DNA of 64,000 bases from Sulfuricurvum sp. (GTDB lineage: Bacteria; Campylobacterota; Campylobacteria; Campylobacterales; Sulfurimonadaceae): the NCBI GenBank assembly GCA_020721585.1, contig DYMK01000005.1, forward strand, positions 62,001 through 126,000, read 5' to 3'. Numbering within the stretch: position 1 is the first letter of the stretch; every line of letters begins with the position of its first letter. The notes under the pieces were generated by a model, which had not been told where the DNA came from, did not search any database, and saw only the letters and a program-made list of their open reading frames with translations. This document shows positions 36,591 through 54,691 of this stretch, in pieces. Position numbers and translations under genes: made by a program.

Positions 36591-36932
<342 letters not shown>

Positions 36933-36942
36933 CTATTCCTTC

Positions 36943-38265
36943 TTATAAATTAAATCCACGTTCACCGTGTACTGATTCGTCAAGACCCATGCTCTCTTCT
37001 TCTTCATTCACACGTGATCCGCCCGTTAAAGCCATAGCGATATAATACACTACAACCGTACCAATCAAGGTAAATGCGCCAACAATTGCAACCGATTGGA
37101 ATTGAACAACGACTTGTCCCATACGATCGCCCGCATCTTTAAGGGGGCCTGCCCAAAGAAGTGCTTTATCACTCACTGCGAAGATACCGGTTGCAATCGC
37201 ACCCCAAAGACCCGCAAGGAAGTGAACCCCAAACGCATCCAAAGAGTCATCGTAACCCAATTTTTTCTTCATTACCATTACACCAAAGAACGCGATCATC
37301 GCACCCATGATACCGATGATAAAGGCACCCTCAACCAAAACAAACCCAGCAGCAGGGGTAATAGCAACCAATCCTGCAATCGCACCGGAAGCGGCACCCA
37401 ACAAGGTCGCTTTTTTGAAGACCATATACTCTAAGGCAATCCACGTAATCGTCGCAACCGCTGCAGCAATCGTAGTCGATAACATCGCAACACCCGCAAT
37501 CGCATTAGCACCAAACGCAGAACCCGCATTAAAGCCATACCAACCAAACCAAAGCATACCTGCACCTACGGCAGTCAATACAACACTTGCAGGTTTCATC
37601 GCTGTTTTAGGATAACCAACACGTTTACCGACCAATAGCGCAAGGATAAGACCCGCCAAACCGCCGTTCATATGAACAACTGTACCACCCGCAAAGTCAA
37701 GCGCACCTAAGTTAAAGAGGTATCCACCACCCCATACCATATGGGCAATTGGAGCATAAACAACGACCGTCCAAAGGGCAACGAAAACCATCCATGTCGA
37801 AAATTTCAAACGCTCAATCACTGAACCAGACGCGATGGCTACGGTAATAGCGGCAAATGTCCCTTGGAACACAACAAAGACGTATTTAGGATAGAGTTGT
37901 CCCAATTCAACACTGGTGAAATCATTCCATTTGATACCATTAAGCATTACATTGCCAAAACCACCAATAATTTGGTTCATTGACCCATCCGCGGTTCCAA
38001 ACGCAATGGAAAACCCTACGATAATCCAAACGATAAATCCAACCGCAAATGCACCAAAGACCATCGCATACGTATTAAGGATATTTTTAGCACGGGTCAT
38101 CCCGCCATAAAACAGTGCCAAACCAATCGGTGTCATCAACATAACTAAGGCAGTTGAGATCAACATCCACGCCGTGTCTCCTGAGTTAAGCACGGGTGCT
38201 GCAGCTGCGGCTGTACCATCTGCCAATGCCAACAGTGGCAAAAGCAATAACATGAATTTCTTCAT
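36943..38265 (-). CDS. amtB: Ammonium transporter with signal peptide
   Basis: A 440-residue Amt protein. The start ATG 38265 (MKKFMLLLLPLLALADG) follows AAGGAGAAACGACG and gives an N-terminal signal-like helix, as in E. coli AmtB. About eleven transmembrane helices follow. Conserved parts: LFYGGMTRAKN, DFAGGTVVHMNGGLAGL with the pore histidine region, WFGWYGFNAGSAFGAN, and DAFGVHFLAGLWG. It imports ammonium under limitation and works with glnK, cotranscribed after it. Confidence 0.95.
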   Translation of the reverse strand: MKKFMLLLLPLLALADGTAAAAAPVLNSGDTAWMLISTALVMLMTPIGLALFYGGMTRAKNILNTYAMVFGAFAVGFIVWIIVGFSIAFGTADGSMNQIIGGFGNVMLNGIKWNDFTSVELGQLYPKYVFVVFQGTFAAITVAIASGSVIERLKFSTWMVFVALWTVVVYAPIAHMVWGGGYLFNLGALDFAGGTVVHMNGGLAGLILALLVGKRVGYPKTAMKPASVVLTAVGAGMLWFGWYGFNAGSAFGANAIAGVAMLSTTIAAAVATITWIALEYMVFKKATLLGAASGAIAGLVAITPAAGFVLVEGAFIIGIMGAMIAFFGVMVMKKKLGYDDSLDAFGVHFLAGLWGAIATGIFAVSDKALLWAGPLKDAGDRMGQVVVQFQSVAIVGAFTLIGTVVVYYIAMALTGGSRVNEEEESMGLDESVHGERGFNL

Positions 38266-38302
38266 CGTCGTTTCTCCTTTTTTTTGTCTAACTTCAAACA
38301 CA

Positions 38303-38357
38303 ATTCTACAAAAATAACAAAGATTAATAATCATATCTATGCCTAAATTTTAATCAT
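38303..38357 (-). promoter_or_regulatory. amtB-glnK promoter with palindromic operator
   Basis: On the minus strand a motif ATTAAAATTTAGG (38354-38342) is followed by exactly 33 bp and a -10-like TAGAAT (38308-38303). The same motif and spacing occur before the second amt gene. No good -35 exists, which fits a promoter needing an activator. Confidence 0.55.
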
Positions 38358-38430
38358 TGTAGTGCTTCATTGGTTATAGGTATCCATGCGTTCATAGTGC
38401 GTTAAGGTGTCCTAGTTAATTGTGTGTTAT

Positions 38431-39348
38431 TTACGAAAACCACCCAAAAAGGGTGGGGATCATGCACGCTACCGCAAAAAAAAGTACCGAAGTGACCAAT
38501 ACCCCCACTGTGACATGACGTACCGAGCATCCATACAAGGAAGCAAGATTGACATTTGCTACTGCTAAGGGGACAAGAAACGCCAAAAAGACCATCTCTT
38601 TGATCACCAACGGGAGGGTCATGGTGTATAACACCCCAAAAGCGATAAGGGGTACGAGTATAAATTTGGCAAACGTTATCCACAGAGTCAAACGAAGCTT
38701 GAGATGGGTAATTTTGATTCCATACAGATAAATCCCCAACAACACCAGCTGAATGGTCATCGACGCATACGCCCCCATCATCAGGGTCTTATCGACCGTA
38801 GCACTGGGGTGATAGCCGTTTAGATTCAATGCAATTGCCACAGAGGCTGCCCATAAAACAGGGAGTTTAAGAATATTCATCAGCGAATCGCGAACGCTAA
38901 ATTCCCCTCGGGAATAGTAAAAAACCCCAAAGGTATAGACCACGAAGACGTTGACCAAATTGATCAACGTCAAATACGCCACACTCCCCTCGCCAAACAA
39001 CGTAATCCCCAAAGGGATACCCAAATTTCCCGTATTCCCAATGAGTGCGGCAACCGTAGCAATCGAACGCTCTTTTATGTCATCGGCAAACAATCCTCGG
39101 GCAAGGGGGATCATGATAAGTAATGCGATAAGGGTAATGACACAATACAGCGCGGGGGCAAGGAGGAGTTGGGTATCGATGGGGCGTTTTAAGAGTCCCC
39201 AAAAGGTAAGAAAAATTTGGAGAAAATAGACACTCAATAGCACTAAGGTTTTGTCGTCTATTTTTTCTTTGAACGCCCACTTGGCACCAAATCCCACCCC
39301 AATAAAGAGGTAAATCCCCGCAAGGGAGAGAAAGGTTTCAAGGTTCAT
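38431..39348 (-). CDS. AEC-family permease (auxin efflux carrier type)
   Basis: A 305-residue membrane protein with about ten transmembrane helices in two halves. The family region ALIGNTGNLGIPLGITLFGE and the C-terminal LVPLAVANVNLASLYGCSVRHVT match the AEC (MdcF/YfdV) permeases. Substrates of bacterial members are mostly organic acids such as malonate or malate; the substrate here is unknown. It starts six bases after the second amt stop, so it is part of that nitrogen-controlled unit. Confidence 0.85.
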   Translation of the reverse strand: MNLETFLSLAGIYLFIGVGFGAKWAFKEKIDDKTLVLLSVYFLQIFLTFWGLLKRPIDTQLLLAPALYCVITLIALLIMIPLARGLFADDIKERSIATVAALIGNTGNLGIPLGITLFGEGSVAYLTLINLVNVFVVYTFGVFYYSRGEFSVRDSLMNILKLPVLWAASVAIALNLNGYHPSATVDKTLMMGAYASMTIQLVLLGIYLYGIKITHLKLRLTLWITFAKFILVPLIAFGVLYTMTLPLVIKEMVFLAFLVPLAVANVNLASLYGCSVRHVTVGVLVTSVLFFAVACMIPTLFGWFS

Positions 39349-39354
39349 GTGAGG

Positions 39355-40533
39355 TTAAATGGCACGTTTGAATTCTGGGTAGGCTTCCAATCCGCATTCG
39401 CTCACATCCAGCCCTTGCATCTGATCTTCATCACTGGCACGGAAAGGGAAAACTTTATTGATCAGATAAATAATGACATAGGAGATCGTAAACACAAAGA
39501 CCGCGATTTCCGCCACCCCTTTGAGCTGATTCATAAAAGTGACATTATGTGCAGGATCACTGGCAAAAATACCTACTGCTAACGTCCCCCAAATACCATT
39601 AATAAGATGCACTGACAATGCCCCAACCGGATCATCAATACGCACTTTATCAAACAAAGGAACCGCAAAAACGACCAATGCCCCGCCAATAAGACCGACC
39701 ATAATGGAATCGTACAGTGTAAACAAATGCGCCCCTGCGGTAATGGCGACCAATCCCCCTAATGCCCCATTGAGAATCATCGTAATATCAAACAGTTTAT
39801 ACCGAATATAGATGATAATCCCTGCGATAATTGCCCCTGATAACCCTGCGACGTTGGTATTAAAGATGGTCAAGGCAACGCTATTGGCAGCCTCTTTGGT
39901 CGCGATGCTTCCGACCGATCCGCCATTGAACCCAAACCATCCAATCCACAATAACATGGCACCCAGTACTACCAATGGGATATTTGAGGCGGGAATAACC
40001 CGAATGTGATTCCCTGCATAACGCCCTTTTCGGGATCCAATAATCAAAATAGCGGCCAGCAAGGCCCATCCTCCTGTGGAGTGGATCACCGTCGAGCCTG
40101 CTAAATCGACCATATTAATATCCAATAGGGTATCTTTGAACCAATCACTTCCCCACGTAATATTGACCGCTGTAGGATAGATAAAGCCCCCCATGACAAT
40201 GGTAAAAAGGCTCAAGGGGAGAAGTCGCGCCCGTTCACCAACCCCTCCACTCATAATGTTGATCGCTTTGCCCACAAATGCCATTTGGAACATAAAAAAT
40301 GCCCATTTACTCATGGTCTCATTGTGCAACTCCCCAAACGCAAGGGTATACCCAATAAGAATGAATGCCATAGAGGCGACCGCATAAATCATTACATTGA
40401 CCGTTAAAACACTCGAAACATTCTTGGTGCGCACCAAGCCTGCTTCCAACATAGCAAACCCTGGTACCATAAGAATAATTAACGTAATGGCAAAGAGGGT
40501 GAACAGGGTATTAATTACATAAGCTGTATCCAT
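39355..40533 (-). CDS. amt: Second ammonium transporter, without signal peptide
   Basis: A 392-residue Amt protein distinct from the amtB at 36943-38265. It begins directly with a transmembrane helix (MDTAYVINTLFTLFAITLII). Conserved parts: PGFAMLEAGLVRTKN, DLAGSTVIHSTGGWALLAA, WIGWFGFNGGSVG and DDPVGALSVHLINGIWG. The two paralogues differ considerably. No PII gene is next to this copy; an AEC permease follows. The shared operator suggests common nitrogen control. Confidence 0.93.
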   Translation of the reverse strand: MDTAYVINTLFTLFAITLIILMVPGFAMLEAGLVRTKNVSSVLTVNVMIYAVASMAFILIGYTLAFGELHNETMSKWAFFMFQMAFVGKAINIMSGGVGERARLLPLSLFTIVMGGFIYPTAVNITWGSDWFKDTLLDINMVDLAGSTVIHSTGGWALLAAILIIGSRKGRYAGNHIRVIPASNIPLVVLGAMLLWIGWFGFNGGSVGSIATKEAANSVALTIFNTNVAGLSGAIIAGIIIYIRYKLFDITMILNGALGGLVAITAGAHLFTLYDSIMVGLIGGALVVFAVPLFDKVRIDDPVGALSVHLINGIWGTLAVGIFASDPAHNVTFMNQLKGVAEIAVFVFTISYVIIYLINKVFPFRASDEDQMQGLDVSECGLEAYPEFKRAI

Positions 40534-40567
40534 AACACTACACCTTTGATGGGGGATAAAGGTGTAT

Positions 40568-40622
40568 ATTATAGTGGCAATTTTGTGAAATGAAGCGGAA
40601 AGCGTGATTAAATTTTAATCAC
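40568..40622 (-). promoter_or_regulatory. amt promoter with 19-bp palindromic operator
   Basis: GTGATTAAATTTTAATCAC (40604-40622) is a perfect palindrome around one central base. Reading toward amt, its core ATTAAAATTTAAT is followed by 33 bp and a consensus -10 TATAAT (40573-40568). The site would be centred near -52. Confidence 0.65.
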
Positions 40623-52408: not shown

Positions 52409-53839
52409 TTAGCAAGAGTAGGTGGTTTTAAACTCGTACGCGGTTGGACGACCCTCATCTGGCCATACATCACGCTCAAATCGGTAATGACGATACGCTT
52501 CTAGGAACTCATCGGTAAAGACAGGTTTCAAGAAATCGTTATCACGAATAAGTGACTCTAATGAACCACGAAGGGTATGCGGCATTTGAGGGATCCCTTT
52601 TTCACGGATTTCATCCAATGAAAGCTCGTACAAATCTTCATCCATTGGACCAATAGGGATCTCTTTGTTTTGGATGCCATCAAGACCTGCCATCATCATA
52701 ACGGCAAAGGCAAGATAAGGACACGCCGTAGAATCAGGGAAACGCATCTCAATACGCGTTGCTTTTTCACCCGCACCGTAAGGGATACGACATGATGCTG
52801 AACGGTTTTGAGAAGAGTAGGTCAAAACGCTTGGTGCTTCAAATCCCGGAAGCAATCGTTTGTACGAGTTGGTTGTTGGGTTGGTAAAAGCTGCCACTGA
52901 ACGCGCGTGCTTAAAGATACCACCTACATAGTTGAGACCCATTTCAGAGATATTGGCGTAGTTCCCCTCTTTGTAGAAAAGGTTTTTGCCCTCTTTCCAA
53001 AGTGATTGGTGAACGTGCATACCATTCCCATTGTCCCCAAACATTGGCTTAGGCATAAATGTAGCCGTTTTACCATTAAGGTGTGCCACCATTTTGACCA
53101 CGTATTTGTATTTTTGAACGTTATCGGCTGCACCAATGATGTCAGAGAAAACTACGCCGATTTCATGTTGTCCTTGTGCTACTTCATGGTGACCCAAAAT
53201 AACTTCAAGACCCACTTGTTCTAATACTTGCATCATTTCCGCACGGATATCCACACCCGAATCGGTTGGTGCTACGGGGAAATAACCCCCTTTTGTTCCC
53301 GGTCGGTGACCGGAATTGTAATTGTCTGGGTAAGGATTATTGGAGTTCCAGCCACCCTCTTCGGTATCGATTTTATAGCCTGCTTCATTGATATTATCCA
53401 CAAAAGTGATGGAATCGAACATGAAAAATTCATTTTCAGGACCAAAGTACGCAGCATCGGCAATACCTAAAGACTCAGCGTGTTTAAGGGCAGCTTTTGC
53501 AATGGAACGTGGGCAACGCTCATACGCCTGTTTTTTGTAAATGTCAAATACATCACAGAAAACGATCACGGTTGGATCAGCCGTAAAAGGATCCATAAAT
53601 GCTGAATCAGCATCGGGGATAAGCAACATATCTGATTTATTGATTGGTTGCCATGCGTCGATGGATGACCCATCAAAAGGTAATCCACCCTCGAAATGAC
53701 CCGCATTGACCGCACTCATTCGGTAAGAAACATGGTGCCATGCACCTTTAATGTCTGTAAATCTAAAATCTACAAATTGAACATCATTTTCTTTACAAAA
53801 GGTAAAGAACTCATCGACACTGTTTACAAATTTTCCCAT
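52409..53839 (-). CDS. glnA: Glutamine synthetase type I
   Basis: GlnA of 476 residues, assimilating ammonium into glutamine. Start ATG 53839 follows GAGGTGAG; an in-frame GTG lies three codons earlier. Conserved parts: FDGSSIDAW, the active-site [27 protein letters not shown], and the metal/ATP region [12 protein letters not shown], then [26 protein letters not shown]. The Tyr of the adenylylation loop is kept ([12 protein letters not shown]). With two amt genes and glnK in the window it makes a set for ammonium uptake. Confidence 0.97.
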
Positions 53840-53870: not shown

Positions 53871-53899
53871 AGTATAGCAAATTAAATGTTAATTCTAAA
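53871..53899 (-). promoter_or_regulatory. glnA promoter with ATTAACATTTAAT in the spacer
   Basis: On the minus strand TTTAGA (53899-53894) and TATACT (53876-53871) are separated by 17 bp. The spacer holds ATTAACATTTAAT (53893-53881), one base different from the amt operator core. Here the site lies between -35 and -10, so any protein bound to it should repress. An AT-rich chance match is possible. Confidence 0.4.
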
Positions 53900-53911
53900 A
53901 AAGCAAAGTGC

Positions 53912-54691
53912 TTAAAATTTAACCATCGCTCGATCTCTGTTGCGATAAGTGGCACCGTACTCATATCCAACACTGCGGGCAAGGGTTTGCGCTTCGTGGG
54001 TAAACAGCCCCACTTGATCGGGACGATGGGCATCCGAACCAAAGGTAATGGGAATTTCAAGCTCGGCGATGGACTCTAAAAGAGAAGGTGAGGGGTAAAT
54101 CTCTTCTACGGGTTTTCGCAATCCTGCGACATTAATCTCTATGGTCATATTGGCTTTTTTAATCGCTAAAAGGGCATTTTTTGCCAAGATTCGCACATCG
54201 GTTTTGGGAAAAAAGTTAAACACTTTGAGCAAATCCAAATGCCCTACAATATCGAAACGACCACTTTTTGCCATCTCCTCAATCAATTTAAAATAGCGAA
54301 TGTACATCTCATCGCTCTCTACCTCTTGATAACGATGAAAATATTCAGGGTTATCAAACCCCCACTGATCGATAAAATGGACACTTCCAATACGGTAATC
54401 ACAGGGTCGATTTAAGACACTTGGCTCCATATAATTGGGTAAAAAATCGACCTCATACCCCAACAAAATCGTTATGCGATCAGCGTACTTCTCTTGGGCT
54501 TTACGAATCCACCGTTCATACAGCCCCATTTGAGAAATGCTCATCCGATACTCAGGGTCAAACCGCATGGGAGCATGATCCGAAAAGCCAAAATAGTGCG
54601 TCCCTGCTGCAATAGCGGCTTCAATATATTCATCCACCGTTCCTGTGGCGTGGTTACACAATACCGTATGATTATGGAGGTCAATGGTCAT
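53912..54691 (-). CDS. hisK: PHP-type histidinol-phosphatase
   Basis: A 259-residue PHP-domain protein of the HisK family, removing phosphate from histidinol phosphate. Metal ligands DLHNHTVLCNHA, GFSDHAP, the central GYEVDF and SVHFID, VGHLDLLKVF and the C-terminal GSDAHRPDQVG are in order. ATG 54691 is preferred over 54697 because AGGAA is then six bases upstream. No other his genes adjoin. Some relatives act on other phosphoesters, so the substrate is probable, not certain. Confidence 0.85.
   Translation of the reverse strand: MTIDLHNHTVLCNHATGTVDEYIEAAIAAGTHYFGFSDHAPMRFDPEYRMSISQMGLYERWIRKAQEKYADRITILLGYEVDFLPNYMEPSVLNRPCDYRIGSVHFIDQWGFDNPEYFHRYQEVESDEMYIRYFKLIEEMAKSGRFDIVGHLDLLKVFNFFPKTDVRILAKNALLAIKKANMTIEINVAGLRKPVEEIYPSPSLLESIAELEIPITFGSDAHRPDQVGLFTHEAQTLARSVGYEYGATYRNRDRAMVKF

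Follow-up and report, generated by a model that had tools for sequence, protein, structure and literature searches.

Two ammonium transporter promoters of a Sulfuricurvum-like genome, those of amt and amtB-glnK, are each preceded by a site of the layout TGNNTA-N5-TANNCA. They lie in a stretch of 64,000 nucleotides (G000:C44:62001-126000) that was analyzed as a whole and is referred to here as the window. We consider it very probable that these sites serve as operators for a global nitrogen regulator of the Campylobacterota, mini-NtrC, a descendant of NtrC that would act at sigma70 promoters without a phosphorelay. By mini-NtrC we mean an NtrC relative of 244-276 amino acids (aa) that has neither a receiver domain nor a GAFTGA loop. 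Free-living Campylobacterota (Sulfurimonas, Sulfurovum, Sulfuricurvum and relatives of Arcobacter) are important primary producers of sulfidic and hydrothermal waters; for this phylum, which was thought to be without the usual nitrogen regulator, it is now possible to name a candidate regulator together with its operator and regulon, and also a partner protein.

Operator-like sites in the window and across the phylum

All the features of the window described here are on the minus strand. Upstream of amt, the gene of an ammonium transporter (39355-40533; Pfam Ammonium_transp, 1.9e-89), the initial annotation had pointed out a perfect palindrome, and we find the same: GTGATTAAAATTTAATCAC (40604-40622), which is conserved in relatives, is a perfect 9-1-9 palindrome whose core reads TGATTA-N5-TAATCA; a 13-bp core lies 33 bp from the -10 element TATAAT (40568-40573), and the operator centre precedes the first base of that element by 40 bases. 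The second site, ATGATTAAAATTTAGGCAT (38339-38357), combines the half-sites TGATTA and TGCCTA and stands at the same offset of 40 bases from the -10 element TAGAAT (38303-38308) of amtB-glnK, that is, of a second ammonium transporter gene (amtB, 36943-38265, with its start placed by eye; Pfam Ammonium_transp, 2.6e-108 on the longer open reading frame, or ORF, 36943-38334) and of the gene of a P-II protein (glnK, 36591-36929; Pfam P-II, 1e-33, the P-II models of NCBIfam being just below cut-off). When the gap of 33 bp between core and -10 element was re-measured at both promoters it proved to be identical, as annotated. The further statement that the two carry the same operator holds for the layout, the spacing and the half-site TGATTA; it does not hold for the other half at amtB-glnK, which is TGCCTA, so that the palindromes are not identical. 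Since the mixed form recurs in relatives when amt upstreams are compared (TTGCCTAATTTTTAATCAG, ATGCCTAAAAATTAATCAA), the combination of TGATTA and TGCCTA is a real variant and not a decayed copy. A third site in the window, ATGGTTAAATTTTAAGCAC (53908-53926), stands 69 bp upstream of glnA, the ORF of glutamine synthetase (52412-53839), at an offset of 41 from the -10 element TATACT (53871-53876).

In the genome, which counts 2,286,317 bases, the 19-mer of amt with up to 3 mismatches is found at two places, at amt and before glnA (one match in the reversed control); the many sites in unrelated AT-rich DNA that the initial annotation had named as evidence against an operator do not appear at this stringent level. 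TTGMYTAWWWWWTARKCAA, a looser consensus, matches 16 places when up to 2 mismatches are allowed, as against 8 in the control, so that weak matches by themselves are about half noise. Four of the 16 are the assigned promoters of amt, amtB, an ABC-transporter operon and the gene of a Cache-like membrane protein; we discounted as noise those matches that fall within ORFs or precede unrelated genes (TatD, HTH_3 proteins, a YfiO-like lipoprotein). The site fits at the promoter of the ABC-transporter operon on C98 (offset 41, -10 element TACAAT), which is called nitrate-type by resemblance alone (NMT1_2) and whose permease and ATPase were assigned by eye, and at that of the Cache-like gene on C90 (offset 30, -10 element TATAAT).

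Conservation was assessed upstream of 79 Campylobacterota amt loci and at the two window promoters (81 upstreams in all; an 80th locus, L048, was excluded as having no upstream sequence) with the motif TTG[ACT][TCA]TA-N5-TA[AGT][TGA]CAA, the expectation being taken from Markov shuffles. The site occurs without mismatch in 25 of the 81 upstreams (0.07 expected), with at most 1 mismatch in 48 (1.3 expected) and with at most 2 in 71 (15 expected, with a maximum of 25 over 30 shuffles). The half-sites TGATTA and TGCCTA prevail in Sulfuricurvum, Sulfurimonas and Sulfurovum loci, TGTATA in Arcobacter-type loci. A per-gene tally, covering those ORFs of the loci that have an intergenic upstream and allowing 1 mismatch, places sites before amt (53/81), amtB (21/34), glnK (2/56), the mini-NtrC gene (9/19), the Cache-like gene (3/4) and the gene of PAS-CA, the candidate partner protein discussed below (0/4). 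Other ORFs have 17 sites in 333, several of which belong to divergent neighbors of the genes just named, and the shuffles give 3 in total. The initial annotation had recommended scanning the genome and its relatives for such sites ahead of nitrogen genes, and the targets recovered are mostly nitrogen genes. That the palindromes are not operators but terminators, RNA hairpins or chance AT-rich inverted repeats could be argued from their AT-richness and from the noise among matches to the loose consensus; we give this next to no credence, because they are conserved before different genes with differing upstream neighbors, keep a fixed distance to the -10 element and show recurrent asymmetric half-sites.

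Sixty of the 81 upstreams, those of amt and amtB promoters with a site under the rule applied, entered a tally of the offset between the site centre and -10-like hexamers (at most 1 mismatch to TATAAT). Among the 82 hexamers counted the offset is 40 in 24, 41 in 8 and 39 in 6, each of the other offsets being represented 3 times at most. A second set consisted of 31 of 45 loci from other genomes, those flanking nitrogen or NifA-like genes (the TGTATA loci L187, L188, L192 and L193, with an oxidoreductase, two porin-like ORFs and EutB, were excluded); here the -10 element is at 39-41 in 23 of the 31 promoters and at 30-31 in 5. The class with an offset of about 30, to which the Cache-like promoter of this genome belongs, is one helical turn nearer the -10 element. 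With the first base of the -10 element set at -12 the operator centre falls at about -52, and both the phylum-wide mode of 40 and the majority at 39-41 in the second set back the dedicated operator near -52 that had been proposed from the two window promoters. The sigma54 signature GG-N10-GC is absent from 64 of 82 upstreams, those of amt and glnA in the window included, and in the same 82 only the upstream of L038 comes within 2 mismatches of the sigma54 consensus.

From the position of the sites and the content of the genes behind them we infer, in line with the initial annotation, that the regulator acts as an activator and responds to nitrogen. It seems unlikely that mini-NtrC reads the operator as a repressor that is relieved under nitrogen starvation: the sites at amt, amtB and glnA lie near -52, upstream of the core contacts of the polymerase, with offsets of 39-41 or about 30 that are one turn apart, and repressors seldom require such fixed phasing. 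An autorepressor would nevertheless fit the sites before the mini-NtrC gene itself, 8 of 9 of which start 32-45 bases from the ORF start, and the NtrC of Caulobacter, likewise without GAFTGA, activates some genes and represses others according to one study (PMC10274813).

Loosely defined operator-like sites occur in pairs in 10 of 82 upstreams, their starts separated by 53 bp or about five turns, as for example before amt in the Sulfurovum-type loci L039, L045, L050 and L064. This spacing suggests cooperative binding across five helical turns.

The candidate regulator

Clustering of the genes around amt brought out a protein of 244-253 aa encoded near amtB-glnK, which is the mini-NtrC introduced above and goes further than the proposal of the initial annotation. 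Its gene is within the fetched amt flank in 27 of the 79 loci scanned, in differing gene orders: in Sulfurovum it is followed by a PAS-like gene, and in Arcobacter it is divergent from amtB, beside a gene for a Cache-like protein of 288 aa. In this genome mini-NtrC is encoded outside the window (G000:C58:55247-55978, minus strand), between genes that we take to be slyD-like and fabD-like.

Pfam identifies HTH_8 in mini-NtrC, and in Arcobacter also the sigma54-activator domain; the helix-turn-helix (HTH), of Fis type, is at the C-terminus, with HTH_8 above cut-off in the proteins of this genome and of L081. NtrC is the best NCBIfam model for two of the three mini-NtrC proteins scanned and a Fis-family model for that of L081; the protein of this genome scores 41 bits with the NtrC model, far below its cut-off of 558.6. 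A mini-NtrC profile compared with the PDB matches NtrC1 and, at the C-terminus, Fis, and in hhalign it aligns to positions 137-467 only of Escherichia coli NtrC (E 3.3e-10). The proteins, over their whole range of lengths, begin at the AAA+ core, the receiver with its phosphorylatable Asp being missing. Also missing, in all 19 aligned sequences, is the region of the GAFTGA loop, where the NifA-like protein of this genome has GAFTDA, and in an alignment with E. coli NtrC and that NifA-like protein the acid pair of Walker B is HK in the mini-NtrC of this genome. The Sulfurovum AR protein, modeled with AlphaFold (pLDDT 90), matches NtrC1 (1ny6; Z 15.6, root-mean-square deviation (rmsd) 2.5, 170 aligned), with FlrC and NtrC4 tied; a single domain takes up the VIA rows of each model, and the absence of other families from them is uninformative. 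By the profile match and the model, the AAA+ core of a sigma54 activator is present.

In a survey of 200 Campylobacterota genomes mini-NtrC was found in 55. A perfect TTGMYTAWWWWWTARKCAA site (TGMYTA type) is present in 25 of these 55 and in 6 of the 145 genomes without the protein (Fisher 1.7e-11, in a test that counts related genomes as independent), and the reversed control of the same consensus matches in 4 of the 200; a perfect TTGTATAWWWWWTATACAA site (TGTATA type) is present in 7 of the 200, all 7 of them with mini-NtrC. The perfect TGMYTA loci number 30. None of the 6 in genomes without mini-NtrC flanks a recognized nitrogen gene, the sites being within ORFs or before other genes. Of the 24 in genomes with mini-NtrC, 17 lie beside amt, amtB, glnK, glnA or the gene of a urea-type binding protein. 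Another 3 adjoin NarK-like or molybdopterin/ABC genes, and the remaining 4 (L148, L159, L166, L172) are misses. The proteins of L157 and L169 belong to the NarK family with scores below cut-off, and that of L176 is a molybdopterin oxidoreductase below all cut-offs. Among the neighbors of the TGTATA sites, amtB recurs five times, and amt-type, NifA-like and mini-NtrC genes twice each; glnA, a NarK-like gene, the PAS-CA gene and eutB are also represented, together with two porin-like ORFs and one oxidoreductase. The perfect TGTATA operator is thus borne by two NifA-like genes (L180:3-1445 and L182:3-1436), for which NifA is the best match, below cut-off, and a cascade leading from mini-NtrC through them to nitrogen fixation is possible.

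The recognition helix reads NRXTL in all 55 mini-NtrC genomes, and residue X covaries with the half-site. X is N in 41 genomes, none of which has a perfect TGTATA site, and I, V or A in 14, of which 7 have one (Fisher 1.7e-5, uncorrected for kinship). When 71 proteins are paired with their amt locus, a TGTATA half-site accompanies 13 of 13 I-type and 4 of 57 N-type proteins. One protein, G146:C3:13237-13965, is an I-type mini-NtrC in a family otherwise N-type in the set; in a tree of 55 genome sequences and 10 locus sequences it groups with Arcobacter-type sequences (support 0.96), and in its genome TGTATA sites occur at amtB, at amt and at a NarK-like gene. Protein and sites are a candidate case of joint transfer or of convergence, helix and site agreeing either way.

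Several observations weigh against mini-NtrC as the reader of the sites. The 4 exceptions among the N-type loci (L012, L018, L073, L074) have one TGTATA half, and TGATTA-type sites accompany the V-type proteins found in G054 and G090, so that residue X is not the sole determinant. A perfect site of either type is missing from 25 of the 55 mini-NtrC genomes, and the consensus is therefore loose. When the source genomes of the amt loci were searched for mini-NtrC (50 of the 80 loci; 27 already have it in the locus, and L032, L046 and L048 were excluded), the amt site was found in 3 of 6 genomes without the detected protein (L028, L035, L055), which are perhaps incomplete metagenome-assembled genomes (MAGs) of 1.1-1.6 Mb. 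The counts are of related species and not of independent events. Finally, the mini-NtrC of this genome is not adjacent to amt, and no site was found upstream of its gene.

Only two other HTH_8 proteins were found in this genome, a NifA-like one (C22, so labeled by eye) and an orphan of 299 aa (C15). Both bear the type of HTH that could read the site, and yet we regard it as very improbable that a Fis-type regulator other than mini-NtrC does so. The NifA-like protein retains GAFTDA and would need sigma54 promoters, and its helix, TARQIGYK, differs; the orphan occurs in 195 of 200 genomes of the phylum irrespective of the operator, a distribution that does not track the site and for which it was rejected; and neither is among the recurrent gene clusters beside amt. 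The orphan (G000:C15:54353-55246) has a receiver-like start and a weak HTH_8, and presumably resembles HP1021 of Helicobacter pylori.

TnrA and GlnR of the Bacilli are nitrogen regulators that bind 17-bp palindromes near -50 of sigma70-type promoters. Because the operator described here equals the TnrA boxes in length and position, a regulator of this kind was our first lead; it was dropped after surveys of the HTH and MerR_1 proteins of the genome. These regulators are of the MerR family, and the TnrA consensus TGTNA-N7-TNACA is unlike the operator, being incompatible with TGATTA or TGCCTA. The genome has two MerR_1 proteins only, one beside a DnaJ-like gene and presumably HspR-like, the other of 238 aa (LysR, GntR, TetR and MarR were outside this search), and neither adjoins a recognized nitrogen gene within the 3.2 kb read. 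That a TnrA/GlnR-type MerR regulator or some other unrelated family reads the site is in our view quite improbable. Sites of the CRP/FNR, LysR, Fur and NikR types were set aside in view of the odd length of the palindrome and its 6-5-6 layout.

Proposed mechanism and the PAS-CA protein

With mini-NtrC as the regulator, we propose the following mechanism. The protein has lost the receiver and GAFTGA and kept a shrunken AAA+ core with the C-terminal Fis-type domain; as a dimer it may bind the 17-bp site near -52, or less often near -42, one turn closer, on a single face of the helix, and recruit RNA polymerase with the housekeeping sigma factor to promoters that have a -10 element but no good -35. 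Its predicted targets are amt, amtB-glnK, glnA and genes for the uptake of other nitrogen sources; a NifA-like gene is sometimes among them, and the mini-NtrC gene itself often is. Since mini-NtrC has no receiver to take a phosphate, the nitrogen state would be relayed without phosphorylation, most likely by P-II and/or PAS-CA, a putative remnant of NtrB.

The use of sigma70 has a precedent, because NtrC proteins without GAFTGA act at sigma70 promoters and Arcobacter butzleri is without RpoN. In Rhodobacter capsulatus and Caulobacter the L1 GAFTGA of NtrC is lacking and action at sigma70 promoters is reported or inferred (PMC10274813); these proteins keep the receiver and its phosphorylation site, whereas mini-NtrC has no receiver and has lost far more of the AAA+ core. 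The A. butzleri genome paper records no NtrB/NtrC and no RpoN (PMC2147049). This is not direct evidence on mini-NtrC, because in L061, the only MAG titled A. butzleri in the set, mini-NtrC was not detected.

The PAS-like gene is present in 20 loci and adjoins mini-NtrC in Sulfurovum as well as in five loci of Arcobacter type. Its product, PAS-CA, is modeled (pLDDT 84) as a PAS-like part followed by the CA fold of a histidine kinase. VIA ranks the CA domain of NtrB first (1r62; Z 15.1, rmsd 2.8, 122 aligned, residues 109-233 of the model on NRII 194-349), with RetS, ThkA and HK853 tied within 1 unit of Z; the PAS part is poorly covered by the fold search, and its Pfam score is 15.8 bits against a cut-off of 22.6. 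By sequence the match to NtrB is not significant (CA match, E 0.044), and initiation factor 5A is matched weakly (E 0.0056). PAS-CA is predicted to be like NtrB (NR-II) in its CA fold, the N-terminal part being PAS-like in the model, and to differ from NtrB in the segment between the two: Pfam, alignment and model agree in giving no HisKA match and no DHp segment with a phospho-accepting His, CA following directly after PAS. The nucleotide boxes appear, by eye, to be lost as well. The homologue in this genome (37% identity, E 3.6e-38) is L195:3206-3892 (G000:C98, minus strand). Its gene directly follows rpoD (L195:3892-5760), which is an odd location for a nitrogen sensor.

It is possible, at somewhat less than an even chance in our judgment, that the whole NtrB/NtrC system has turned phosphorylation-free, with the remnants of a sensor (PAS-CA) and of an activator (AAA-Fis) using the housekeeping sigma factor to control the classical NtrC regulon, P-II or a ligand replacing phosphotransfer, and that it is a general regulator of free-living Campylobacterota. 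This appears to be a case of a two-component system that has shed its phosphorelay and yet preserved both the regulon and the DNA-site geometry.

The Cache-like membrane protein of this genome (288 aa; L099:4682-5548, G000:C90, minus strand), whose Arcobacter homologue is encoded beside mini-NtrC, is possibly an extracellular sensor.

Relation to known nitrogen regulators and neighboring features

The NtrC box of E. coli is given in PMC8743547 as a 17-bp palindrome, TGCACCAnnnTGGTGCA, and boxes of this type were read in the glnALG record of E. coli K-12. The operator described here shares with it the length of 17 bp and the TG..CA ends; the likeness is one of geometry only, the inner bases being different, with half-sites TGATTA, TGCCTA or TGTATA as against TGCACC for enterobacterial NtrC, and the promoters are sigma70-like. 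The regulon core of enterobacterial NtrC (NR-I, GlnG), which in PMC5343134 is listed as including glnA, amtB and glnK, is shared by the predicted sites. Unlike the enterobacterial protein, mini-NtrC is without receiver and GAFTGA and, in this genome, has lost the acid pair of Walker B. Because receiver, GAFTGA and sigma54 promoters all fail, we do not file mini-NtrC as NtrC; the best model is that it descends from the NtrC family and works like NtrC even with these three defining features gone.

As for earlier descriptions, a 2016 survey of proteobacterial regulons that included NtrC left out the epsilonproteobacteria, stating that their genomes have no orthologues of the target regulators (PMC5343134). 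A review of Sulfurimonas (PMC4584964) makes no mention of ntrC, nitrogen regulation, ammonium transporter, nifA or nitrogen assimilation. No description of mini-NtrC or of the operator was found in the open literature, which is weak evidence, as subscription journals are mostly outside its coverage.

With 84-87% identity, the closest named relatives of Amt come mostly from Sulfuricurvum MAGs. A permease of the Mem_trans family (38431-39348) is encoded between amt and amtB-glnK, in the same orientation as both. Among the loci compared, L052 comes from a record titled Desulfosporosinus, yet it has an Arcobacter-type amt with mini-NtrC and the operator, and is probably a mislabeled MAG contig.

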